A stretch of 64,000 nt of DNA from an uncultured Alphaproteobacteria bacterium (GTDB taxonomy: Bacteria > Pseudomonadota > Alphaproteobacteria > CADEGL01), in the NCBI GenBank assembly GCA_902826885.1, contig CADEGL010000001.1, forward strand, positions 72,957-136,956, read 5' to 3'. The notes beneath the pieces are model-generated. The model ran no database searches. It had not been told where the DNA came from and saw only the letters and a list, made by a program, of their open reading frames with translations. Shown here one piece after another: positions 32,763 to 48,294 of the stretch; position 1 is the first letter of the stretch; every line of letters starts with the position of its first letter. The translations under genes and the position numbers were made by a program.

Positions 32763-33794
32763 CTACTCGCCTTGAGAACCTATCCCCGGCGTACGCGGTC
32801 CGCGCATCAAGCGTTCCCACGCGCCGCGCCGTGCGATATGCCCGCGAATGAACATTCTTACCGAAACGGATGCGAACCGGGCCAGCACCAGCGTGCTAAC
32901 CACGGCCATAAAGCTCGATGGATAATAGGCCGTGAAATTCTTGCGCAGAAACCGGACCAGAGAACGATGCTTATGCGCCTCGACCCGGATGGGACGGGTA
33001 CGGCTACAAACGCCTTGGGTGTGCTCAACCACCGCGCTCGGCACGAACAGGATCTTAAATCCCGCCGACTGGAAGCGGAGGCACCAGTCCAGATCCTCGA
33101 AATGAAGGAAGTATCCGCTGTCCAAATAGCCCACCGCGTCGATCGCCGCGCGGCGCACCAGCATGCAAGCGCCGGAAATCGCCGGCACTTCCGACGGCCG
33201 GTCGGGCAGCACGGCGGCATCATAGGCAAAATCTCGAAACCGCGGATGGTCCGGCATCAGCCGATGCAAGCCGAACGCGACACAGAAGATTTGCCAGGGA
33301 TTGGGGATATCACGCCGGCAGCCGCGCTGCTCGCTGCCGTCCGGATTGACGATCAAAGGCCCGGTCATTCCCACGTCTGGACGCTCCTGAATCATCCATT
33401 TCAGAAGCGCCAAGGAGCCGTCATGCATCCGGCAATCGGGATTGAGGAGTAGAACCGCCCCCCCGCGCGATACCGTGATGCCGGCATTACAGGCGTGGGC
33501 AAAACCATAATTGCCGTCGAGTTCGATGATCCGGATGCTGCCGGCCGGCACGCGGGCTCGCAGGGACTGCAAACTGCCGTCCGATGACGCATTGTCGACA
33601 ACGATGACTTCCGTTTCGACTTCCGCTTGGCCCAAAACACTATCCACCGCTGCGGCGAGATAATCGCCAGCGTTGAAATTGACGATCACGACCGAGACGA
33701 GATCGTCTGAGCCGCCCGAAGTGTCTTTAACGGGCAAGATGCGAGACGGCGTGTTCACACCGGAACCTGCGTTATGAACCGCCGATATAGACAT
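32763..33794 (-). CDS. family 2 glycosyltransferase (rhamnosyltransferase-like)
   Basis: The GT-A domain begins SVVIVNFNAGDYLAAAVDSVL near residue 34, with VDNASSDGS, the NYGFAHACNAGI loop and LLLNPDCRM as the DxD equivalent. The motif GACMLVRRAAID and HFEDLDWCLRF place it with WbbL-type rhamnosyltransferases. The C-terminal 80 residues include a hydrophobic segment and many basic residues, which suggests membrane association. Its start overlaps the lipoprotein hydrolase stop by 23 bases, so both belong to one minus-strand unit. It converges with gmhB. Confidence 0.88.
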   Translation of the reverse strand: MSISAVHNAGSGVNTPSRILPVKDTSGGSDDLVSVVIVNFNAGDYLAAAVDSVLGQAEVETEVIVVDNASSDGSLQSLRARVPAGSIRIIELDGNYGFAHACNAGITVSRGGAVLLLNPDCRMHDGSLALLKWMIQERPDVGMTGPLIVNPDGSEQRGCRRDIPNPWQIFCVAFGLHRLMPDHPRFRDFAYDAAVLPDRPSEVPAISGACMLVRRAAIDAVGYLDSGYFLHFEDLDWCLRFQSAGFKILFVPSAVVEHTQGVCSRTRPIRVEAHKHRSLVRFLRKNFTAYYPSSFMAVVSTLVLARFASVSVRMFIRGHIARRGAWERLMRGPRTPGIGSQGE

Positions 33795-34644
33795 ATTGCT
33801 TCAGCAGCCCAGGCCACCGCTCCTCCCAACAGCAATCGTGATCCACACCCGGAACTTCGATGATATTGATCCGGTCGGGATCTGAAAATCGGCTGCGATA
33901 AGACTGAGCAACCTTTGGCGGCACGCTGGTGTCGTCCTGGCCGACGAAATGAATTTGCGGGATGCGGCTCAAAGAGGACGTCATATCGGCTGGGTTGAGC
34001 GAGGCCGAGAGCGGCGAAACCTTGCGAATCGAGGTCCAGGCGGCATGGTCGAGGTTACCGGCGACGGTCACAAGCTGAATCACGTCGGTACGGCGCGCCG
34101 CGATCAATGCCGCGACGGCGCCGCCGCCGGAATAGCCGAATAGCCGCAGGCGTTTAGCACCCGTGGCGCGCACCGTCTGATTGATCTCCGCATTCATCGC
34201 GGCGACCACCTCTTCCGAATACCGCGCGCCGGACCAGTATTTCGGGCTGCACCGCGCGAGCTCGGCTTCCGACTGGTATTGGCACGGCCGGGCCAGATAA
34301 AGCCGGTTGGCGGAGGGATCCTGCACCGCCAATTCCAGCGCGATCGGAATGCGCGGCGTCGGGTCGGAGGAAAGTTGAGTAGAGGTCACCCAGGCGAAGC
34401 CGTCGCCTTCGATATAGACGCTGAGATCGCTGTTGGACGGCGTTCGGATGGATCGGAAGCCAACCAGGCTGAAAGGGCCGGAGACGGTCTGAAAACGCTC
34501 CCAGCCGCTGCGCGCGGCCACCCGGTCGGCCAACTCGCGTCCGCCATAGAGGAACGCAGAATCGCCGCAAGCGGCCACCGACACGACGGCTAAAACGAAG
34601 AAGGCCCACCGTTTCAGGTGGGCCTTCGGACGTTCAGGTTTCAC
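33772..34644 (-). CDS. alpha/beta-hydrolase lipoprotein
   Basis: A signal peptide with lipobox cysteine C26 (VSVAAC) predicts an envelope lipoprotein. The hydrolase triad can be placed as S172 in the FGYSGGGAV elbow, D237 or D238 in VGQDDTSVP, and H269 in GVDHDCC. The substrate is unknown; envelope esterases of this kind often act on acyl or acetyl groups. The first codons (about 7-14) are encoded by the terminator hairpin of the preceding outer-membrane protein gene. An internal start would remove the signal peptide, so I keep the ATG at 34644. It is coupled to the glycosyltransferase downstream. Confidence 0.75.
   Translation of the reverse strand: MKPERPKAHLKRWAFFVLAVVSVAACGDSAFLYGGRELADRVAARSGWERFQTVSGPFSLVGFRSIRTPSNSDLSVYIEGDGFAWVTSTQLSSDPTPRIPIALELAVQDPSANRLYLARPCQYQSEAELARCSPKYWSGARYSEEVVAAMNAEINQTVRATGAKRLRLFGYSGGGAVAALIAARRTDVIQLVTVAGNLDHAAWTSIRKVSPLSASLNPADMTSSLSRIPQIHFVGQDDTSVPPKVAQSYRSRFSDPDRINIIEVPGVDHDCCWEERWPGLLKQYVYIGGS
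34601..34626 (-). terminator. terminator-like hairpin inside the hydrolase signal-peptide codons
   Basis: A perfect 10-base stem (AAGGCCCACC and GGTGGGCCTT on either strand) with a 6-base loop lies 22 bases after the outer-membrane protein stop. On the minus strand CTTCGTTTTA follows. It probably ends most transcripts of the barrel gene, and read-through would express the hydrolase. Confidence 0.6.
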
Positions 34645-34647
34645 GGA

Positions 34648-35709
34648 TCAGAACGCGTAACGGATGGTCCCCGAACCCGTGTAGGAGATGTAATCCGTCT
34701 GCCCCACCTGGGACTGGAACTGCACGCCACCCGAGAAACGCGGGCTGAGCGCGAACAGCAAGCCGCCACCGACATTGGCCGAGTTCTTATAGGCCGTCGG
34801 CTGCGTCTGCCCCGGGCCCACCGTCGGCAGGTCGTATTTGTAGGCATAGACATACTGGGCCAAGAGGTAGGGCTGCACGTTGCCGAACTGGTAGCCCACC
34901 TGGCCGCCCGCCAGGAACTGGCCGAAATGCACCGTCGTATCGGGCACGCTCGGGTTCCCGCCCGTCCCGGTCTCGCTGTAGCCGTCGATGCCCTGGTACA
35001 TCCAGTTGGCGCCGATCGAGGGCCGGAACTGGAAGTTGCCGGAGGCCAGCGTGGCCGTCAGGTTACTGGCCATGAAGAAGCGCGTGCCCGACGTATCACC
35101 CGTGATCGCGCCGTTGTTGCGCGTGAGGTCGATGCTGTTGCCGACATAACCCGCCGTCGCATCCAGATACAACTGGTTCGGGATCAGCTGCACCAGGACG
35201 TAGGGCGCCACCACCGCGCCGTTGGCGTCCCAGGTGCCGTTGTTGAAGTTGGTGTTGATGTCCTGGCGCTCATAACCGACCGACAGGCCCGCCAAGACCC
35301 AGTTGTTGATGCGGTAGTCCGCGCCCAGCGCGAAGGTGTAAACCTGACCGCTGGTGTCGATCGCGCTCTGGGTCTCGCTGAAGCCCGAGCCCGTGAAGTT
35401 CGACCAAACGCCGAAACGCTGCTCGTCGGCACCCGCCGAAGCACCGGTTGCCGCTCCGCTGTCCGCGAAGCCGCCGCCCTGGCGCTTCCCGTTCACCGCA
35501 TACTTCGATCCGGTGCCGGCGTCGCCCGTCTTTGTAAACATGCCGGAGGTGAAACCGCCGGAGATTGTATTGATCGAATTGCCGCTGGTGCCCGCAACCA
35601 CCGTCGACGAGCCGGTCGAGGTCGAGTTCGTGTTGTACGCGGCGAGCGCGCTGGCACTAAAAAGCGCGACGGCCACCGTAACACCGCAAGCCAATAACCG
35701 ATTGATCAT
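34648..35709 (-). CDS. outer-membrane beta-barrel protein (autotransporter-barrel-like)
   Basis: A clear Sec signal peptide (MINRLLACGVTVAVALFSASALAA) is followed by a Ser/Thr/Gly-rich stretch of about 70 residues. About 250 residues of alternating amphipathic strands then end in TIRYAF, the terminal aromatic residue recognised by the Bam complex. The domain resembles the barrel of autotransporters, but there is no passenger. It may be a porin-like or adhesion protein of the outer membrane. I choose the ATG at 35709 at the signal peptide; one at 35721 adds four residues. An inverted repeat upstream (35840-35855) could be its operator. Confidence 0.8.
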   Translation of the reverse strand: MINRLLACGVTVAVALFSASALAAYNTNSTSTGSSTVVAGTSGNSINTISGGFTSGMFTKTGDAGTGSKYAVNGKRQGGGFADSGAATGASAGADEQRFGVWSNFTGSGFSETQSAIDTSGQVYTFALGADYRINNWVLAGLSVGYERQDINTNFNNGTWDANGAVVAPYVLVQLIPNQLYLDATAGYVGNSIDLTRNNGAITGDTSGTRFFMASNLTATLASGNFQFRPSIGANWMYQGIDGYSETGTGGNPSVPDTTVHFGQFLAGGQVGYQFGNVQPYLLAQYVYAYKYDLPTVGPGQTQPTAYKNSANVGGGLLFALSPRFSGGVQFQSQVGQTDYISYTGSGTIRYAF

Positions 35710-35839
35710 AGACGTCCCCACCCGTGGCGATGGCCTTACGTTTGGCCTATTAACCCACCGGAATTTTTAAGGAACACCGGATCAGGAGTCCAGGATCATC
35801 CGAACCTCACAGCCGGTTCTCGATCGTTCACAACGGAAA

Positions 35840-35966: not shown

Positions 35967-37952
35967 TCAGGGCCCATTGCCCACGAGCCGAGGGCGAAGG
36001 TTCGCCGGGACGGGCGAAACCCGCTCGATTCCCGATACCAAGCTTTGGCGCAGCAAACCGATGCCGTTCTCTCGGGTGGATGGGTCCGGCGAGTTCACAA
36101 GGACCATTCCAGCAAACCACAACCCGACGGGATCTGCCGGGTCTCGGGCCAGAAGCCGGCGCGCGAACGCCAAGACCGACGCATAGTCGCCACGTTCCAT
36201 GCGCCAAGCCAAATAGGGCCAAGCGATGTCGGTGCGCCGGGGCGCCCGCACAAGAAAGCGGTCCAATGCGCGCTCCCAGGTGCCGAAGAGATCGGCAAAT
36301 CGTGCCCGCATGTCTGGAAGCGCGGGATCGAACATGATCTCGCTGCGAAACAACACTGGCACGATCAATAGATCGGCGGAGCGGGTTTTGCCGGCCGCGC
36401 GTCCGACCGCGCAAAGAAGGCGCTCCATCCGACTCATGCGCCCGGCGGTTACAGGCTTGCCGTCGCGCTCGTCGGCAAAAACATCGCCATAGGAGGCGGC
36501 AAATGCCTGCGCGAGCGTATAGCTGCCGCGGTCGAGATCAAGCGGCAGCTTCTCGCAAATGAGCGACGGGTCGGGCGCGATACTCTCCGAAAAATAGGCA
36601 TGACGGAGAGAAAGGCCATAAACCGCAAGCCAGCCGGCCGCGCCCGCCGATGACAGGGCGCACAGCATTAGAACCGCAGCCCATCCGGAGCGCGTGCCCA
36701 GCGCACGGCGCAGCCTCCCTCTAAGCCGTACCGGTCCTACCAGCCAGCCGGCGGCCAGAGCGACAAGAGGAACCGTCACGACGACCTGGAACCACAGCGC
36801 CAAGAGCGCCGCGATCGCGGTCGCGAAGCCGGTCGCAACGGCCAGCATGCCGCGCCGCGCGTAAAACGGCACCATTGCCATCATCGCGAGAATGCCGAGG
36901 AACGCGGGCACTCCGGCGGCCAACACGGATTCGAACATGACGTTGTGGAGATCGGTGTAACGGCGAGTCGTCGCATCCCAACTTCCGTCCCATAAAACGG
37001 CCCCGCTGGCGTTGAAATGAATGTTGATGATCTCGCTTGCCCGCCCCCAGCCTTGGCCGATCAAAAGGGAGAGAGGCTGGTCCCGGATCGCTTCAAGCCC
37101 GATGCGGTCGAGATAGAGACGCGCGGTCAGCGAGCGAACCCATCCTTCGTATCCCACGAAAGCGGCGCCAAGGGTGGCCGCGGCAAGCGCGGCAGGGACC
37201 AGCGACGCGGCAAGCCAGCGGTCGCGCCGCGCCGCGGGCAATCCGTCACGTCCCAGCCAAAGGATGAACGCGGCCGAGAGGAGCGCGACGGCGAAAGCCC
37301 CCCATACCGTGTTGTTGTTGGAAAGAACCAGCGCGGGCACGCCCGCAACCAGCCCGAGCACGACTGCCGAGCGTGGCGGCAGGCGGCGGCAGGCCGCGAT
37401 CGCCAGCGCCGCCGAAGCGGGCGCAAAAAAAGAAACATACTCCGCGAAAAATTCCGGCCGCCCCACGTGTGCGGCGACCAGTGCAGGGATCAATGCGCCA
37501 AGGCCCACCCCGATGCCGGCCACCCAAGCGCCGATGCGGAAACGCCGCAACACCATGGCCGCCGCCATGAACAGCGCGATTTCGGCGTACATCAGGACAC
37601 CCTCGCCCGAGGAAGGACTCCCCAACAGCGAGTTGAACGGAAACTCCACAAACGGAGACAAAAGCGCGCTCCATGCCGACACAGCGAGAGCGGCAAGAAC
37701 CAGCGGATGGCCTAGGGAAGGGATCACGATCGCTGGGCGTTCGATGCAAACGAGCAAAAGACCGACAGCCAAAATCGCGGCGCCGGCATGCATCATGACG
37801 ATCATCGGCTCGATATCCGGCGACACGCCGAGATCGATTGGAATCAGCGATGCGAAAAAATTTGCGGTGGCAATCATCGCGCCGGCGGCGGCGAGGACGA
37901 GTCCTGCGCGCGCGAAACCGCCCGATCGGGCGCTTCGAACGGATAACGTCAT
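35967..37952 (-). CDS. O-antigen ligase/polymerase-like membrane protein
   Basis: The 661-residue product has about 12 membrane segments in its first 440 residues and a large soluble C-terminal region of about 220 residues. The segment RLYLDRIGLEAIRDQPLSLLIGQGWG followed by a periplasmic loop and DLHNVMFESVLAAGVPAFLGIL resembles the O-antigen ligase/Wzy core, where an arginine-rich loop and a histidine act on lipid-linked glycans. The C-terminal part looks helical and repeat-like (TPR-like). I choose the ATG at 37952, which overlaps the stop of the small membrane protein (ATGA). It is the last gene of a coupled five-gene operon. Polymerase and ligase cannot be told apart here. Confidence 0.72.
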   Translation of the reverse strand: MTLSVRSARSGGFARAGLVLAAAGAMIATANFFASLIPIDLGVSPDIEPMIVMMHAGAAILAVGLLLVCIERPAIVIPSLGHPLVLAALAVSAWSALLSPFVEFPFNSLLGSPSSGEGVLMYAEIALFMAAAMVLRRFRIGAWVAGIGVGLGALIPALVAAHVGRPEFFAEYVSFFAPASAALAIAACRRLPPRSAVVLGLVAGVPALVLSNNNTVWGAFAVALLSAAFILWLGRDGLPAARRDRWLAASLVPAALAAATLGAAFVGYEGWVRSLTARLYLDRIGLEAIRDQPLSLLIGQGWGRASEIINIHFNASGAVLWDGSWDATTRRYTDLHNVMFESVLAAGVPAFLGILAMMAMVPFYARRGMLAVATGFATAIAALLALWFQVVVTVPLVALAAGWLVGPVRLRGRLRRALGTRSGWAAVLMLCALSSAGAAGWLAVYGLSLRHAYFSESIAPDPSLICEKLPLDLDRGSYTLAQAFAASYGDVFADERDGKPVTAGRMSRMERLLCAVGRAAGKTRSADLLIVPVLFRSEIMFDPALPDMRARFADLFGTWERALDRFLVRAPRRTDIAWPYLAWRMERGDYASVLAFARRLLARDPADPVGLWFAGMVLVNSPDPSTRENGIGLLRQSLVSGIERVSPVPANLRPRLVGNGP

Positions 37953-38254
37953 GGCCCCCAAATGCGCCCTTCCCGGCGCCCATGATTCATGTAGTGCTCC
38001 CGCGCGCCCAAGACGCCCATGCCACCCTTTTCACCGTACAGCGGGCTCGCGGCCACGTCGGGATAGCGCGTCCAGTAGGCGCGCGCCAGCTTCTCCTCCG
38101 CCGCCGTGTCGATATCCGCCGTGCGCGCGAGGACACGCAGCATCTCGCCGGTCTTCTCATCCATGAGCGGCGACTGCAGCGCACCGGCGGCATAGATCGC
38201 GAGACCAACGGCGAAGGCCGCAAACCCGACCCAAGCTGGAAATCGGCTTCTCAT
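37949..38254 (-). CDS. small membrane-anchored protein with YPDV...HYxxHGxxEGR motif
   Basis: This 101-residue protein has one N-terminal membrane segment (residues 8-27). A C-terminal module follows that reads YWTRYPDV at 60-67 and then HYMNHGRREGR at 87-97. The same pattern occurs as a short repeat module at the ends of some surface or glycan-processing proteins, but no function is established to my knowledge. The start codon overlaps the sulfatase-like gene stop (ATGA at 38251), and its stop overlaps the ligase-like gene start, so its dosage is locked to both. I infer a structural or targeting role in the same envelope machine. Confidence 0.7.
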   Translation of the reverse strand: MRSRFPAWVGFAAFAVGLAIYAAGALQSPLMDEKTGEMLRVLARTADIDTAAEEKLARAYWTRYPDVAASPLYGEKGGMGVLGAREHYMNHGRREGRIWGP

Positions 38255-39885
38255 CGCTGGGATACCAGTTGGATGTCCAACCACTGGCTCCATAGATCGT
38301 TTCGGCCGGTGGGCCCGACACGAACGCGCACCCGGCCATAAGGGACGACCCACCGGTCCCAGTACGCGCGGTCGACGGCGCCGAAATCCTTCACGGTGCC
38401 CGTGACCTGCATCTCGCCAGAGAAGGCTTTCCAGCCTTCGCCGACCTCGTATTGAATCACATAGGACTGATCTACGGCGCCGGTCCATTCCATACGGAAC
38501 TTCCCGCCGAAATCGTCATAGCCCATCACCGGCTGTCCGACCGGATAGACCCACACAGGACGCTCCGCCGAAGTCACCGCATTGGCCGCTCGCGCGGGCG
38601 ATGGCGGCCGCATATTCGCGCGCTCGGCCATGAGCGCCGCCTCCATGCCAGCGGCGCGCTCGGCTTCGTCGCCAATCCGGTTTCGCAACTCGCCAGGATC
38701 CTGGGCCAGGTTGTAAAGCTCCCGCTTCGTGACCGCACCGTCGATGATTTCGATCTGCAGCTTCCACGGTCCGTCCTTGCGCGCGAAGACATAACGCCGG
38801 ATTTGGTTCGGATCAGGCTCGGCGTAGCCAGCACCGCTGGTCACTGCGCTCCAGACACGGTTTTCGGAAGGCGGCATCAGGACGCTGCGGCCCACGAGCG
38901 TCACCGATGGCTTGCGTCCGAGCAGATCAAGCACGGTCGGCATGAGATCGGTATGCCAAGTCTCGTCTTCCCGCACCCCCGGCGCCATGCGTCCGGCCAG
39001 GCGCGGCGGTAACCAGATCACGAGCGGCACATGCACGATCTCTTCCGGCATGTGCCCATGCCGGTTGGTCGACGCATGCCCGAGTTCACCGTGGTCGAGC
39101 TGCTCATCGCCGTGGTCGGCCGTAAGAATAAGGATGGTGTCGTCGCGCAGGCCGGAACGATTGAAAAATTCCCAAAAGGAGCCGAACCAGTCATCGAAGC
39201 CGCGCAGGTTGGCCAGATAAAGCGCGCGGATGGCCGGGCGATCGGTAGCTTGAAACGCTATCGAACCAGAAGGAATGACCGGCTCCGTCATCACCGCTTC
39301 CAGCCTCTTTTCGGCGGCGGCGTCGCCCGGCGGCAAAAGCGCGCGCCAGTCCGGCAGACGCTCCGCCGAGGGCGCATAGGGCAGATGGGTGGGAAGGTAG
39401 TGATACCAGAGCACGAACGGCTGCCGGTTACGAACCCGCACCGCGAGCCATCCGTTCAGATCTCGTTCGGACTCGACCGATAGGCTTAGATGATCAAAGA
39501 CGCTGATCGCCATAAAGGATTGCAGGCCGGCGACGCGCCAACCGTCCTTGGCCATCTCGGAAAGCGGGGTCGCGACGTCCTGCGGCAGGGACTGATCGCG
39601 CGCATGCACGCCTTGCGCGAAGGGAGAGAGACCCGACAGCACGGCGATGATGTTGGGAGCGGTCCATGCCGAGACAGCGCGATGATTGACGAAACGCGTG
39701 CCGCTGCGTGCGGCGGCGAAGACCGCGGGAAAATTCGCCTCGGTAAAATCCGACGCCCGCGTGCTTTCCACCGTCAAGACGATGACGTTCAACCGGCGCG
39801 ACAAGGCAAGCTCGCCGATGGCCATAGCCGCCGCAGCAGCAAACGCGAGGGCTGCGAGGCTAGTTGAAAGCCAGCGGCGCGACAT
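38251..39885 (-). CDS. sulfatase-superfamily enzyme with threonine at the nucleophile position
   Basis: The alkaline phosphatase/sulfatase fold is clear: LTVESTRASD near residue 38 (metal-binding glutamate), WTAPNIIAVLSG near 74, and the metal site TADHGDEQLDHGELGHAS near 255. A true sulfatase has C/S-x-P-x-R that is converted to formylglycine. Here T75 occupies that place and the arginine is absent, as in LtaS and phosphoethanolamine transferases. It may therefore transfer or cleave a phosphodiester rather than a sulfate. An N-terminal hydrophobic segment anchors it, and a beta-rich domain of about 100 residues ends the protein. It overlaps the VanZ-like gene by 26 bases. Confidence 0.8.
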   Translation of the reverse strand: MSRRWLSTSLAALAFAAAAAMAIGELALSRRLNVIVLTVESTRASDFTEANFPAVFAAARSGTRFVNHRAVSAWTAPNIIAVLSGLSPFAQGVHARDQSLPQDVATPLSEMAKDGWRVAGLQSFMAISVFDHLSLSVESERDLNGWLAVRVRNRQPFVLWYHYLPTHLPYAPSAERLPDWRALLPPGDAAAEKRLEAVMTEPVIPSGSIAFQATDRPAIRALYLANLRGFDDWFGSFWEFFNRSGLRDDTILILTADHGDEQLDHGELGHASTNRHGHMPEEIVHVPLVIWLPPRLAGRMAPGVREDETWHTDLMPTVLDLLGRKPSVTLVGRSVLMPPSENRVWSAVTSGAGYAEPDPNQIRRYVFARKDGPWKLQIEIIDGAVTKRELYNLAQDPGELRNRIGDEAERAAGMEAALMAERANMRPPSPARAANAVTSAERPVWVYPVGQPVMGYDDFGGKFRMEWTGAVDQSYVIQYEVGEGWKAFSGEMQVTGTVKDFGAVDRAYWDRWVVPYGRVRVRVGPTGRNDLWSQWLDIQLVSQR

Positions 39886-40675
39886 GAGAGATCACCGGAT
39901 AGAGCGCGGTCGCGCCCGCGAGAAGAATAAGAACGACGAGCGCATGGCGCCATCCCTCGCCGTAGCCTGAAACGGCATCGGCGTATGCCCAAGCCAGCAC
40001 GCCGCCGAGCAACGGCAAGATCGTCCAATAGGGTAAAATGGCCTCCTTGAACGCATTGAGTGCGACGAGTTCCAATCCTACCCCGGCCAGCACACTCAGC
40101 ATCGCAACGATCACGGCCCGGGGCGGCGGTACGCCGTTCGGCCGGCCGGCTTCCATCCAGCCAAAGCCGTGGGCCAGCAACGATCCCGCCGCGGCGCCCC
40201 ATGCATTGGTCAGAACATCAACCAGACCGAATGTCCGTTGCGGATGGAAACCTTGAATGAGTTCATCATGGCAGCCGAGAATGACCGTAATAAGCCAACC
40301 AGAAAGGGTCAGAGGCCATCCCGATACGCGGGAGCACAAACCGCGGCGGACCACCAGCGCCAGCGCGATATACTGGGGCACATGGATGCGCTTGGATGGA
40401 AATTCGGGATCGGTCGCCAATAGCCCGATCAACGCGCAGGCCAACGCCAAAACGACAATGAACCAATCCGTTCGCGCTCGCGTGCGTGCGGTCCGCACGG
40501 CGGCCACACCGAGACAGGCAAGCACGAGTAACGTGGCGACATATGGCACGTTGCCCGCCGCGTCCCCCATCAGCGCGGATATCTCGCGCCAGAGCGCGAA
40601 CATGTTGACGAAAGTCGCCATGAGCGCGAGCGCGACGCCATACCAGACGAATGGCGCCAGCCGCGCAGCCTTCAT
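39860..40675 (-). CDS. VanZ-family membrane protein
   Basis: The 271-residue product has about eight membrane segments and the VanZ signature (DELIQGF, PQRTFGLVDVLTNAWGAAAG). VanZ proteins are best known from teicoplanin resistance, but most environmental homologues sit in glycan operons with unknown roles. I choose the ATG at 40675, which overlaps the stop of the upstream gene by four bases (ATGA). An ATG at 40708 lies inside the upstream gene. The stop lies within the start of the sulfatase-like gene, which fits tight coupling. Confidence 0.8.
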   Translation of the reverse strand: MKAARLAPFVWYGVALALMATFVNMFALWREISALMGDAAGNVPYVATLLVLACLGVAAVRTARTRARTDWFIVVLALACALIGLLATDPEFPSKRIHVPQYIALALVVRRGLCSRVSGWPLTLSGWLITVILGCHDELIQGFHPQRTFGLVDVLTNAWGAAAGSLLAHGFGWMEAGRPNGVPPPRAVIVAMLSVLAGVGLELVALNAFKEAILPYWTILPLLGGVLAWAYADAVSGYGEGWRHALVVLILLAGATALYPVISHVAPLAFN

Positions 40676-41781
40676 CGCGCCCACGTCAATTGAGAGCGCG
40701 ACAGCCATCCAGCCTTATCGGCAAGAATCAGCAGCACCCAACCATCCGCCTTCTCTTCGGCGATATAGCCTTGATAACGGCCCTTCGCGATCTGCCCGAC
40801 GATTGCACATTCACCAGCGCCGCAACGCCTTAAATCCGCGGTATCGGTCACCTCGATCGATATGAACTTGGCTGGCACGACGCTTTTCGGCGTGAACACG
40901 AGTGCCCCCGGGGGATCGTTACCGGATCGCTTTTCCGCGAGTGGCAGTCTCACGGGAACCGGATCGCCAACGGGCACGACGGTGGAACTACCAGGGATCG
41001 CGCCCAAGACCTGAATCGCCGCGTTGGGGCAGTAGGGCAGATATGCGACATAAAGCCGTCCGCGCCAGCCAGACGGTTCGAGGTTCGGATGAACGGTCTT
41101 CGCGACGTCCGGCCGAGGTGAACCGATCTTGGCATGCCCCACGATCTTGCCGCACATGCCGAACAGCACATCTTTGAAGCGCATACCGAGAGCCGGATCA
41201 CCGCTCCAACCCGACAGCTCGATAAAGTCTGTCAGCTTTGGCATGACGTTGCCCAGCTTGCCGCCCGTGGAAGCGATTACGGCCGCGTCCACAAAACCCG
41301 CGTGTGCATCGAGCTTGCGCCATTCGGCGGCTGGATACTGAGCGGCCGGGAGGAACGAAGACGTAGCATGACCTGCGGGAGCGGAAAGCACCGCGGGCGG
41401 CGGCACCGCGGCGGCCGGCGGCGAGGGCTTACGGCGCTTGGCAAAGCTCGGAGGGGTATCCGCCACCTCCTCGGCCAGCGCGATCGGTCCCGCGGCTTCC
41501 ATGGCGGACTGGAGCCGGAGAGACTCCGACAAATCACGCTCCCGCCCGCTTCCGGCCACCACGGATTCTCCAGCCGTGGACGTCTCCTCCGCCGCCACGC
41601 CCGGCTCCGCGGGCGCGCGGGCCGGAGCGTCAGTGCTCACCCCATAGATGAGCCGAATGACCTGCTCCGGGAAAAAATGGGCAATTAGGAATCCACAGAA
41701 CAGTCCGCTGAAGATGAAAAAGAACACCGCCCATACGCCAACGAGGGAAAGGCGTGTCCGTTTTTCGAGGCCGACGATCAC
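40672..41781 (-). CDS. membrane-anchored protein with Pro/Ala-rich linker and SH3-like C-terminus
   Basis: The 369-residue product has one membrane anchor (residues 13-37), then a low-complexity Pro/Ala/Glu linker to about residue 150. A globular domain with several cysteines (FGMCGKI, PYCPNA, RRCGAGEC) follows. The last 55 residues (GQIAKGRYQGYIAEEKADGWVLL, ending GWLSRSQLTW) look like a bacterial SH3 fold, a module that often binds peptidoglycan. I do not recognise the middle domain. It is the first gene of the coupled minus-strand operon, and the promoter should lie in the 150 bases shared with the divergent permease-like gene. Confidence 0.68.
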   Translation of the reverse strand: MIVGLEKRTRLSLVGVWAVFFFIFSGLFCGFLIAHFFPEQVIRLIYGVSTDAPARAPAEPGVAAEETSTAGESVVAGSGRERDLSESLRLQSAMEAAGPIALAEEVADTPPSFAKRRKPSPPAAAVPPPAVLSAPAGHATSSFLPAAQYPAAEWRKLDAHAGFVDAAVIASTGGKLGNVMPKLTDFIELSGWSGDPALGMRFKDVLFGMCGKIVGHAKIGSPRPDVAKTVHPNLEPSGWRGRLYVAYLPYCPNAAIQVLGAIPGSSTVVPVGDPVPVRLPLAEKRSGNDPPGALVFTPKSVVPAKFISIEVTDTADLRRCGAGECAIVGQIAKGRYQGYIAEEKADGWVLLILADKAGWLSRSQLTWAR

Positions 41782-41932: not shown

Positions 41933-43318
41933 TTGCCTGAACGTATTGAACAAATGCAGGTCAACGCGCACGCAGCCCGGCATGGATTGCTCCGCACGCT
42001 CATGGCGGTGTCGATCAATGCCTGTGTGGTTCGCTACCGTCTCGACCGGCCAGTGGGCGCACTCTATCTGCTGGCGGCAACGCTCGACCCGTTCATCTAT
42101 AGCGCCACGATCTATTTCGTGCTCGCCACGGTTTTCGATCGCTCCGAACCTCTGCGATTCTATTTTCTCTTGCTTGGACTGATTTCATTTCGTTGGACCC
42201 TCAGCTGTCTTTTCCAAGCTCTGAATCTGCATGTCATCCGCACGCGCCTTTCCGAAGTCACGCGCTATGGCCATATCGGCGCCATCGTCGCGGTGATGAC
42301 CCCTTCTACGCTCGCGTTCCTACTGTCTCTCTCGCTCGCCCTGGCATGGCTGATCGCGGTACGTGCGGAAGGGCAGTCTTTGGCCACACTGTGGGCCCTT
42401 CCTGTCGTCATTCTTTTTCAATGTCTCTGGACAGCAGTTCTCGTAATCGTCGTCGATATTCTGCATCGTGCGAGAGTCGTGGTTAGCCAGGCCCCGATCA
42501 TCGCCTTCGCGGTGCTTGTCTGGTTCCTTTCGCCCTTCATGTACGGGATGGAAGATATCCCGCCTTCGGCCAGCCGCATTTTGACCAGCTATAATCCGGT
42601 GACGCACGTTCTCGCCGCATACCGGCATACCTACTGGTACGGCACCATGCCTAGTTTGACCGTGCTGCCCGCCGCCGCCCTGCTCATGGTCGCCGGCATC
42701 ATCGCATTTCGCCGCCTAGGCTCCCCAACACGGACCGTGGTGAATTCGACTTTCGTGGCCTCGTCCCACACCGCACCGATGCTGGTGATGATCACGGGCA
42801 CAGTTCCCCCGCTGAGATTGATCAAGTCAGACCGGCCCGAAATCGAAATCTCCCTTTTCACGCGATGGCACGGACAAATTGGCGGCTTCAGCGGCGCGGG
42901 AATGGCGCGCTTAATACTGGCCGCGCAAGGAGCCTCCCGAGGGATCACCGTCAGGTTGAAAGAAGTTCAGGCAGCCAGCGGCGTAGGCCGATTGTTCGAA
43001 CAAGAGCTCTCTATTTATCCTGACTGGGCTCTCGATCAATTGGCGTTCGCGCTCGCCATTTCTTCACCGGCCCACAACTTGATCCTCAACGGCTTGTTGA
43101 GCGCCACTACCGCCGAATTTACGGCATCCGCTTGGCACCGCGTGGAAGCGGACCTGGGAAAAGGCCGACTGATCACCGTCGTGACAGACCGCCCGGTTTC
43201 ATTGCCCGCCAACGCATGCGGGCACTATCGCATTGTCGGCCCGAGCGGAATTATCGCCGAGGGTGACCTAAGAGAGGGCATGGAGGCGATCAAATCGGCC
43301 TCCAACCTCCGTCCCTGA
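41933..43318 (+). CDS. ABC-2-type polysaccharide permease fused to a degenerate KpsT-like ATPase domain
   Basis: Residues 20-262 form about six membrane segments of the KpsM/Wzm export permease type (FLSPFMYGMEDIPPSASRIL, then YNPVTHVLAAYRHTYWYG). Residues about 285-455 align by pattern with KpsT/Wzt ATPases, but every catalytic element is altered. The Walker A-like GFSGAGMA (318-325) has M for Lys and A for Ser. The Walker B-like LILNG (383-387) has N and G for Asp and Glu. The switch histidine is D419 in VVTDR. It probably cannot hydrolyse ATP on its own. No intact ATPase partner was found nearby. It is divergent from the operon at 41781 and ahead of a GT2 gene. Confidence 0.75.
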   Translation: MPERIEQMQVNAHAARHGLLRTLMAVSINACVVRYRLDRPVGALYLLAATLDPFIYSATIYFVLATVFDRSEPLRFYFLLLGLISFRWTLSCLFQALNLHVIRTRLSEVTRYGHIGAIVAVMTPSTLAFLLSLSLALAWLIAVRAEGQSLATLWALPVVILFQCLWTAVLVIVVDILHRARVVVSQAPIIAFAVLVWFLSPFMYGMEDIPPSASRILTSYNPVTHVLAAYRHTYWYGTMPSLTVLPAAALLMVAGIIAFRRLGSPTRTVVNSTFVASSHTAPMLVMITGTVPPLRLIKSDRPEIEISLFTRWHGQIGGFSGAGMARLILAAQGASRGITVRLKEVQAASGVGRLFEQELSIYPDWALDQLAFALAISSPAHNLILNGLLSATTAEFTASAWHRVEADLGKGRLITVVTDRPVSLPANACGHYRIVGPSGIIAEGDLREGMEAIKSASNLRP

Positions 43319-43339: not shown

Positions 43340-44362
43340 ATGTCCGCCGGCCCCCCGTTCTTTTCCGTTCTGATCGTCAACTACAATGCCGGCGAGTATT
43401 TGGAACGGTGTCTGAAGGCCTTGCGCGCGCAGAGCTTTGACGCGTTCGAGGCGATCATCGTGGACAACAACTCCCAAGACAATTCACTTTTCCACTGTCA
43501 CGAACATTTGTCGGACCCCCGCATTCAGCTCATCCGTATGCCGCACAACGTCGGTTTCGCCGCGGGTAACAATCGCGGCGCGAGCGTTTCCAGGGGCGAG
43601 TGGTTGGTCACGCTTAATCCTGACGCCTTCCCATCTCCCGACTGGCTATCCGAGTTGAGCGCCGCCACACAAAAATATTCCGCCGCTGATATGTTTGGCT
43701 CTACTCAAATCAACGCACGGTCTCCGACCGAGTTGGATGGCGTCGGCGATGCGTATTTGGCGATAGGCATTCCTTGGCGCGGCGGCATGGGGCATCCCGT
43801 GGAAACAGCCCCACAGGATTACGAAACGTTCGCCCCATGCGCCGCCGCTGCCGCGTACCGGGCATCGTCCTTTCGCCAGGTAAAGGGCTTCGACGAAGAC
43901 TTTTTTTGTTATGTTGAAGACGTGGATCTGGCGTTCCGGCTTAGACTCATGGGCAGCAAATGCATCCAGCTGAAAAACGCACAGGTGTATCACATTGGCG
44001 GCGCTACCAGCGATGCAGCGGGCTCCTTTGCCCGCTATCACGGCATTCGAAACCTGATTTGGGTCTTCGTGAAAAACATGCCTGCGGCGATTTTCTGGCT
44101 AATGCTTCCGCTCCACGTCTTGGCACTCCTGGTCCTGTTCGTAAAAGCGGTGCACCGCGGCAATGCTAGCGTGACGTCCAAGGCTATTCTCGATGGAGTG
44201 CGGGGTCTGCCGCCGGTTTGGCTGCAACGACGGAAGATACAGGCTGTCCGGCGCGCTTCCACCGCGGACGTGGCAAGCGCGTTATGTTGGAATCCGAAAA
44301 CCTACTTCCAGCGGGATGCCTATGTGATCAGACCTTCGGCCAAAGCGCCCACACGGAGCTAG
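43340..44362 (+). CDS. family 2 glycosyltransferase (rhamnosyltransferase-like)
   Basis: The GT-A domain begins SVLIVNYNAGEYLERCLKAL, with IIVDNNSQDNS, the HNVGFAAGNNRG loop and TLNPDAFPSP as the DxD-like site. The later FDEDFFCYVEDVDLAFRLR segment marks the WbbL-type subgroup. It is a paralogue of the enzyme at 32763-33794. The C-terminus has one or two membrane-associated helices (FWLMLPLHVLALLVLFV). It follows the permease-like gene by 21 bases and converges with the SIS-domain gene, so it may glycosylate the glycan that the fusion protein helps export. Confidence 0.88.
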   Translation: MSAGPPFFSVLIVNYNAGEYLERCLKALRAQSFDAFEAIIVDNNSQDNSLFHCHEHLSDPRIQLIRMPHNVGFAAGNNRGASVSRGEWLVTLNPDAFPSPDWLSELSAATQKYSAADMFGSTQINARSPTELDGVGDAYLAIGIPWRGGMGHPVETAPQDYETFAPCAAAAAYRASSFRQVKGFDEDFFCYVEDVDLAFRLRLMGSKCIQLKNAQVYHIGGATSDAAGSFARYHGIRNLIWVFVKNMPAAIFWLMLPLHVLALLVLFVKAVHRGNASVTSKAILDGVRGLPPVWLQRRKIQAVRRASTADVASALCWNPKTYFQRDAYVIRPSAKAPTRS

Positions 44363-46656: not shown

Positions 46657-46752
46657 GACAAACCTCGACAAGGCCTGGGAAAGGATGTTTTCTCTTGCCC
46701 TGCCGACGCCGCCCATTCCGCGAAACGGCTCGTTTCAGGCCAAGAGTCGGTG

Positions 46753-48294
46753 ATGCCGGATGTGCCGCACATGATCACTTCCAAGATCAAGGATCTTAAG
46801 GATCTGGGTCGCATTGCCGCCGACCTCAAAAAGGACGGCGCGCGAATCGTGTTGTGCCATGGCACGTTCGATTTGCTTCATATCGGCCACGTCCGCCATC
46901 TCATGCAGGCGCGCCGGCATGGCGATGTGCTGATCGCCACGGTAACCAGCGACCGCTATGTGCGTCGGGGACCGGACCGGCCGGTTTTCCCGGCCGAACT
47001 GCGCGCGGAAATGCTGGCGGCGACCCAATATGTCGATTGGGTTGCAATAAACGACAGCCCCACGGCCGAACCACCAATTCGGATCATTCAGCCGTCCTTT
47101 TACGTGAAAGGCGCGGACTACAAGAACACGTCGGAGGACGTTACAGGAAAAATCCTGGACGAACGGCGCGCAGTTGAGGAAGGCGGAGGACAGCTTGTCT
47201 TCACCGAAGACATCACCTTTAGCTCCTCCTCGCTCATTAACCGATACGGCAACATTTATCACGACGAGTTGCGCAACTATCTGGAAACCGCGCGGACTCG
47301 CAACGCGGCCCCCCGGATCAACGATCTCATCGAACGGGCTGCCGACCTGAAGGTCGTTCTGATCGGCGACGCGATCGTCGACGAGTATCATTACGTGGAT
47401 CCGATGGGGAAATCCTCCAAGGAGAACCTCGTCCCAACCCGCTTCCATCAGTCTGAAATCTTCGCGGGCGGTATTTTCGCCGCTGCTAACCACGTGGCTG
47501 ATTTCTGCAAAGAAGTCGAAATCGTCACGGTTTTGGGCGAAGACGACTCAAACACGGGCATCATTCGCACGGCCTTGAAGCCAAACGTCTGCCTTACGCC
47601 GATCTTCCGCCCCAAGGCACCTACAACCCGAAAGGTGCGATTCGTCGACCTTAGTTACGGGCGCAAGCTGTTTGAGGTCTACCACATGGACGACACGCCA
47701 CTGCACGGCTCGCTGGAAGACGAGGTGCAGTCGACGGTCGACAAGGCGATTCGGGCCGCGGATGTCACCATCGTTACGGATTTCGGTCACGGTTTCATGA
47801 CCCCGGCCATGCAGGACTGCGCCTATGGCGCAAAATTTTTGGCAGTCAACGCGCAAACCAATAGCGCCAACGTCGGTTTCAACCTGATCACGCGCTACAG
47901 AAGAGCGGATTACGTTTGTGTCGACGCCCCAGAGGCTCGGCTGGCGTGCGGCGCGCGCAGCGCGTCCATCGAAGAATTGGCATCGACTCTACTGCCCGAC
48001 CGTATCGATTGCGACCGGATCGTCGTTACCCATGGACGCCATGGTTGTGTTGGATGGCGGCGCGCTCAAGAGCCTGTGCGGGCACCGGCTTTCACACGCG
48101 ACGTTCTAGACACCATGGGAGCGGGCGACGCTTTCTTTTCGGTCACAGCCCCTTTGATTGCCATAGACGGTGAGATGGACGATATCATCTTCATCGGAAA
48201 CGCCGCCGGCGCGCTTAAAGTCAACATCGTCGGTCACCGCAAATCCGTCGGCAAGATCGACCTTTTGAAATACTGCCACACACTGCTCAAATGA
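46753..48294 (+). CDS. HldE-like bifunctional heptose nucleotidyltransferase-kinase, reversed domain order
   Basis: Residues about 10-150 are a cytidylyltransferase-fold adenylyl/nucleotidyltransferase, with GTFDLLHIGHVRHL holding the HIGH motif at 43-46. Residues about 195-510 are a PfkB (ribokinase) kinase with VLIGDAIVDEYHYVDP and the catalytic aspartate D459 in TMGAGDAFF. In E. coli HldE the kinase comes first and the transferase last, so this fusion has the opposite order. The pair of reactions phosphorylates heptose-7-phosphate at O1 and then transfers a nucleotide. The stop overlaps the E1 alpha start (ATGA at 48291). The ATG at 46753 follows a GTG at 46750. Confidence 0.85.
   Translation: MPDVPHMITSKIKDLKDLGRIAADLKKDGARIVLCHGTFDLLHIGHVRHLMQARRHGDVLIATVTSDRYVRRGPDRPVFPAELRAEMLAATQYVDWVAINDSPTAEPPIRIIQPSFYVKGADYKNTSEDVTGKILDERRAVEEGGGQLVFTEDITFSSSSLINRYGNIYHDELRNYLETARTRNAAPRINDLIERAADLKVVLIGDAIVDEYHYVDPMGKSSKENLVPTRFHQSEIFAGGIFAAANHVADFCKEVEIVTVLGEDDSNTGIIRTALKPNVCLTPIFRPKAPTTRKVRFVDLSYGRKLFEVYHMDDTPLHGSLEDEVQSTVDKAIRAADVTIVTDFGHGFMTPAMQDCAYGAKFLAVNAQTNSANVGFNLITRYRRADYVCVDAPEARLACGARSASIEELASTLLPDRIDCDRIVVTHGRHGCVGWRRAQEPVRAPAFTRDVLDTMGAGDAFFSVTAPLIAIDGEMDDIIFIGNAAGALKVNIVGHRKSVGKIDLLKYCHTLLK

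Follow-up and report, generated by a model that had tools for sequence, protein, structure and literature searches.

The locus described here raises two questions: can a Wzm-type channel function when it has no motor of its own, and which parts of a nucleotide-binding domain (NBD) serve coupling and which serve catalysis? A conserved fusion of such a permease with part of an NBD would be a natural test of both. The fused gene lies in the window, a 64,000-nucleotide stretch of DNA from an uncultured alphaproteobacterium, at positions 41933 to 43318 of the forward strand, and comprises 461 codons in a single uninterrupted frame. Its start is uncertain (TTG at 41933, ATG at 41954, or ATG at 42002), and the length of 461 amino acids is counted from the TTG. 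Scans of the whole protein gave no Pfam or NCBIfam match. The architecture, a Wzm/KpsM-type permease joined in one frame to a partial, degenerate Wzt/KpsT-type NBD, is well supported by the open frame and by orthologues. An initial annotation, made from the sequence, had proposed a full-length fusion, without a stop, of an export permease and a dead KpsT-like domain, and this general reading is borne out by the profiles, fold, orthologues, and selection described below.

The permease part (residues 20-262; 41990 to 42718, forward strand) was delimited by a Wzm HMM, AF2 helices, and invariant columns. It contains an N-terminal helix, six TM-like helices, and the motif SPxxY..DIP..S..TS.NP..H..A.Y, and its typical Wzm permease motifs are the most conserved part of the fusion protein. 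The HMM, which was built from 35 permeases with members of the fusion family excluded, matched the window protein (P0001) at 1.9e-9 and the orthologue L019 at 7.7e-13. The order of helices predicted by AF2, with low confidence at residues 199-245 of the window protein, fits an N-terminal helix followed by TM1 to TM6, the last two separated by short helices. Profile and predicted helices together indicate membership in the Wzm/KpsM (ABC-2) polysaccharide permeases.

There is strong evidence from both sequence and fold that the C-terminal part (residues 309-446; 42857 to 43270, forward strand), delimited by hhalign and Foldseek, is homologous to the KpsT/Wzt NBD. When an alignment of the nine orthologues was compared with 13 intact Wzt sequences, hhalign returned a probability of 97.3% (P=1.7e-11), and P0001 alone against intact Wzt gave P=2.5e-8; the real score of 86 compares with 22 for the best of 60 column shuffles and 12 for the reversed alignment. 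A. aeolicus Wzt ranked first in a profile search of PDB sequences (E=9.8e-8) and was also the top Foldseek match of the half-NBD model (8dne_C). In the AF2 model, where pLDDT in this region is mostly about 80-94, helices and strands follow the ABC order, as they also do in the L020 model, and the recognizable elements are a WxG/TGR motif, the helical subdomain, a degenerate signature, Walker B, the switch strand, and a C-terminal hairpin. The profile search and structural prediction that the initial annotation had suggested thus found an ABC ATPase match and the Wzt fold, rather than no match or a different fold.

The individual motifs show how far this domain has departed from an ATPase. GFSGAGMA (42884 to 42907) had been read as a Walker A-like element, and this was wrong: the 51 residues that separate it from QLAF, together with TGREL, TGRD, or RGRDL at its position in the orthologues, identify it as the counterpart of the Wzt/KpsT LTGREN motif, which lies downstream of Walker A. 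In the intact Wzt of the same genome, Walker A is 95 residues from RLAF and the LSGREN motif is 56, and hhalign places GFSGAGMA on the LSGREN motif of Wzt. KpsT also carries a TGREN motif, a feature shared with the half-NBD. Motif alignment upheld the other placements, all on the forward strand like GFSGAGMA. DQLAFALAIS lies at the signature helix, where YPDWALDQLAF (43016 to 43048) stands in place of the ABC signature YSSGMxxRLAF; LILNGLLS (43079 to 43102) occupies the Walker B position, with Asp changed to Asn and the catalytic Glu to Gly; and LITVVTDRP (43169 to 43195) occupies the H-loop, or switch, position, with His changed to Asp.

All catalytic residues had been described as replaced, which holds for Asp, Glu, and His in the window protein but not for the Walker A half, which is absent and not substituted. 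A pattern search for GxxGxGK[ST] found no occurrence in any of the nine members, whose Walker A segment is not alignable, and the first ~90 ATPase residues have no detectable counterpart in the fusion protein, homology beginning at the LTGREN-type motif. Where the first half of the NBD and its P-loop would be, there is a linker of 46 residues (residues 263-308; 42719 to 42856, forward strand), marked by pN about equal to pS, no P-loop pattern, and low pLDDT. The AF2 model of the window protein has pLDDT <50 at residues 263-278 and 297-302, and its strands at 283-288 and 306-310 are not joined by a P-loop helix. These comparisons indicate that the half carrying Walker A has been lost or can no longer be recognised, and has not simply been mutated. 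Because the P-loop half is absent, the claim that the KpsT spacing is kept from Walker A onward is not supported.

Not all of these substitutions recur in the orthologues. Among the eight members readable through the domain, the signature (SSGM/SGGQ) is lost throughout, with YPD(W/Q)A and variants instead, and the catalytic Glu is likewise always replaced (by Gly in seven and Arg in one). The switch His is replaced in seven of the eight, L020 being the member that keeps it, whereas the Asn at the Walker B Asp belongs to the window protein and the other seven retain Asp. Judged by its Walker A, signature, catalytic Glu, and switch His, the window protein does not appear to be a functional Wzt/KpsT ATPase.

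Single-sequence and profile searches yielded eight orthologues, all from Alphaproteobacteria: G314, G300, G401, G386, G410, and the MAGs MarineAlpha10_Bin3 (L019), L_MB362 (L020), and casp40-mb.248 (L021), where G314, G410, and G386 are the same records as L023, L022, and L024, respectively. The window protein as a single query against genome contigs gave no match, but an alignment-based scan of them succeeded. The fusion-bearing Alphaproteobacteria are distantly related and mostly known from environmental metagenomes. The fusion is rare among the genomes searched (385 of the class and 398 of the phylum, the latter seemingly also mostly of the same class) and was not found in plasmids or phages, both of which were searched. 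On a tree of the permease parts, all nine members group together at the end of a long branch (SH-aLRT 100), and the fusion has a single origin. An NAD-dependent epimerase domain is fused in frame behind the half-NBD in three orthologues (L019 2616-3557, L020 11426-12331, and L021 3150-4046), while the epimerase of G410 is a separate frame overlapping the fusion gene. A gene resembling GDP-mannose 4,6-dehydratase follows the epimerase domain in L019 and L020.

Selection was assessed in comparisons of L019, L020, and L021. Because synonymous sites are near saturation, the values are compared proportions and not exact rate ratios: pN was 0.14-0.22 against pS of 0.63-0.67 in the permease, 0.33 against 0.57-0.78 in the half-NBD (51-54% identity), and 0.54-0.56 against 0.66-0.83 in the linker, which is almost without constraint. 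Although it evolves more quickly than the permease, the half-NBD is under purifying selection, while the segment where the P-loop used to lie is not maintained.

The fusion gene belongs to a conserved polysaccharide locus. On the reverse strand of the window, this locus comprises a GT2 glycosyltransferase (32763 to 33794), an alpha/beta hydrolase (33772 to 34644), an autotransporter-type beta-barrel (34648 to 35721), an O-antigen-ligase-like membrane protein of 664 amino acids (35967 to 37961), a sulfatase-family membrane enzyme (PF00884; 38251 to 39885), and a VanZ-like protein (39860 to 40708). The adjoining membrane-anchored protein (40672 to 41781, reverse strand), labelled SH3-like by eye and without a Pfam match, is also present in G002. 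A second GT2, not orthologous to the first, lies 22 bases downstream of the fusion gene (43340 to 44362, forward strand). The ligase-like protein has no Pfam match itself, and homologues occur in G314, with a weak Wzy_C match below the cut-off, and in G300; it may be a divergent O-antigen ligase. In G314, the fusion is surrounded by homologues of the GT2, hydrolase, barrel, ligase-like, sulfatase, and VanZ genes, and in G300 by the same set except VanZ. The short loci of G386 and G401 show fewer of them.

We tentatively suggest, as the best explanation, that the permease operates without a canonical ATP cycle and that the half-NBD serves as a scaffold. One in-frame deletion across the wzm-wzt operon boundary could have taken out the stop codon of wzm together with the initial ~90 codons of wzt, and with them the beta strands, the Walker A P-loop, and the first helix of Wzt; the signature and catalytic Glu would have been lost afterwards. 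Under the established ABC mechanism, the half-NBD presumably cannot form either side of the canonical ATP sandwich because the P-loop and signature are both gone. The fusion would then form no ATP site in cis and offer no signature to the ATP of a partner, and it would be independent of ATP. The helical subdomain of ABC proteins lies towards the membrane domain, and since the kept half includes this subdomain while providing no sandwich side, a scaffold or clamp role is favoured. The half-NBD would fill the cytoplasmic docking face of the permease and, in some lineages, hold the fused NAD-dependent sugar epimerase, whereas movement of the lipid-linked glycan or glycolipid would be driven by neighbouring synthesis or another machine. 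It is possible, with rather more doubt, that a whole lineage of ABC-2 glycan permeases works without any ATP site and employs the half NBD both to clamp the structure and as a scaffold for enzymes.

The main rival reading is a heteromer, in which the fusion would be the inactive side of an asymmetric exporter, paired with an intact Wzm/Wzt half or with separate Wzt subunits. A motor acting in trans is conceivable because four of the six fusion genomes (G000, which is the window genome, G300, G401, and G410) encode one intact Wzt-type ATPase each, against 52 of 142 class genomes (about 37%) at the same cut-off, and G386 has a Wzt fragment (L024 5815-6978, reverse strand), truncated where the contig stops and carrying a long C-terminal domain. 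This fragment lies about 2 kb from the fusion, and Wzt lies about 24-25 kb away in G000 and G300; degenerate-site heterodimers are, moreover, a known class (PMC12038006, PMC8403869). However, these numbers are small and confounded by the size of the genomes, and with Walker A and signature both gone, each of the two composite ATP sites would lack a part. Known degenerate NBDs, by contrast, keep Walker A. No Wzt was found in G314 (86% complete), and the locus that G000, G300, and G314 share contains no gene for an intact ATPase in any of the three. A related Wzt clade shared by the fusion-bearing genomes was rejected, as their Wzts are scattered on the Wzt tree; because of this, and because a Wzm permease adjoins Wzt in G000, G401, and G410, a fusion protein independent of a dedicated ATPase is favoured, without being proven. 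A dedicated intact partner such as degenerate-site heterodimers have was not seen, and we consider the heteromer unlikely. The intact Wzm/Wzt pair of G000 is located outside the window (contig 1, ~140.9-142.4 kb; L006 10909-12449), and its very divergent Wzt has the longest branch on the class tree.

It is distinctly improbable that the permease moves no substrate and only anchors the glycosyltransferase and epimerase at the membrane. The orthologue of the first GT2 lies directly upstream of the fusion gene and overlaps its start in L019, L020, and G300, which would suit such an anchor, as would the fused epimerase of three orthologues, but the high conservation of Wzm-typical permease motifs suggests a kept transmembrane function. 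Far less credible still is a decaying relic or assembly artefact, that is, a pseudogene whose frame is open by chance. Conservation is lower in the half-NBD than in the permease, and towards its C-terminus the G300 copy has diverged strongly, yet the fusion is kept in nine members from independent assemblies, and a half-NBD that is constrained while the linker is near neutral already contradicts decay. The initial annotation had also argued against simple decay, in agreement with orthologues that have the fusion in common, along with the loss of Glu and signature, and with pN well below pS.

The fusion differs from each of the systems it resembles. The Wzm/Wzt O-antigen exporter of A. aeolicus (PDB 8dne, 7k2t, 6m96) has the same permease and NBD families, and its Wzt is the best match of the half-NBD in sequence and fold, but there the permease and the NBD are separate proteins and P-loop, signature, and catalytic Glu are all intact, whereas the fusion is one chain without the P-loop half, signature, or Glu. 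The TagH/TarH teichoic acid exporter ATPases (7dd0, 9cfl), which also matched the fold of the half-NBD in Foldseek, are active and separate, unlike the half-NBD. The KpsM/KpsT group 2 capsule exporter belongs to the same superfamily as the fusion, and KpsT is an active ATPase. KpsM/KpsT works with KpsE and KpsD. The degenerate-site heterodimers ABCG5/G8 (PMC8403869) and MsRv1273c/72c (PMC12038006) share with the fusion an impaired NBD in one chain with a membrane domain. The fusion is unlike them in having lost the half with the P-loop and in showing no dedicated partner. Degenerate-site heterodimers keep their P-loops, one working site, and a dedicated partner. Many ABC transporters contain degenerate NBDs, but to our knowledge these retain the P-loop and pair with an active site. 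Searches of open-access papers for such fusions or dead NBDs listed no description of this one; the papers used for comparison were PMC9445017, PMC8403869, and PMC12038006.

An ancestral intact wzm-wzt was looked for at this locus in G001 and G002 and not found, as G001 has lost the region and the contig of G002 breaks off within the SH3-like gene, short of the fusion site. G001, of the same genus, represents a partial loss of the polysaccharide locus: the GT2, the hydrolase, and 49 amino acids of the barrel gene are kept, after which the sequence diverges, without the fusion (L092 1-2355). Elsewhere in the window, the translation of 46750 to 48294, read by eye, resembles a fusion of a cytidylyltransferase with an ADP-heptose-kinase-like part, the reverse of the usual HldE order.
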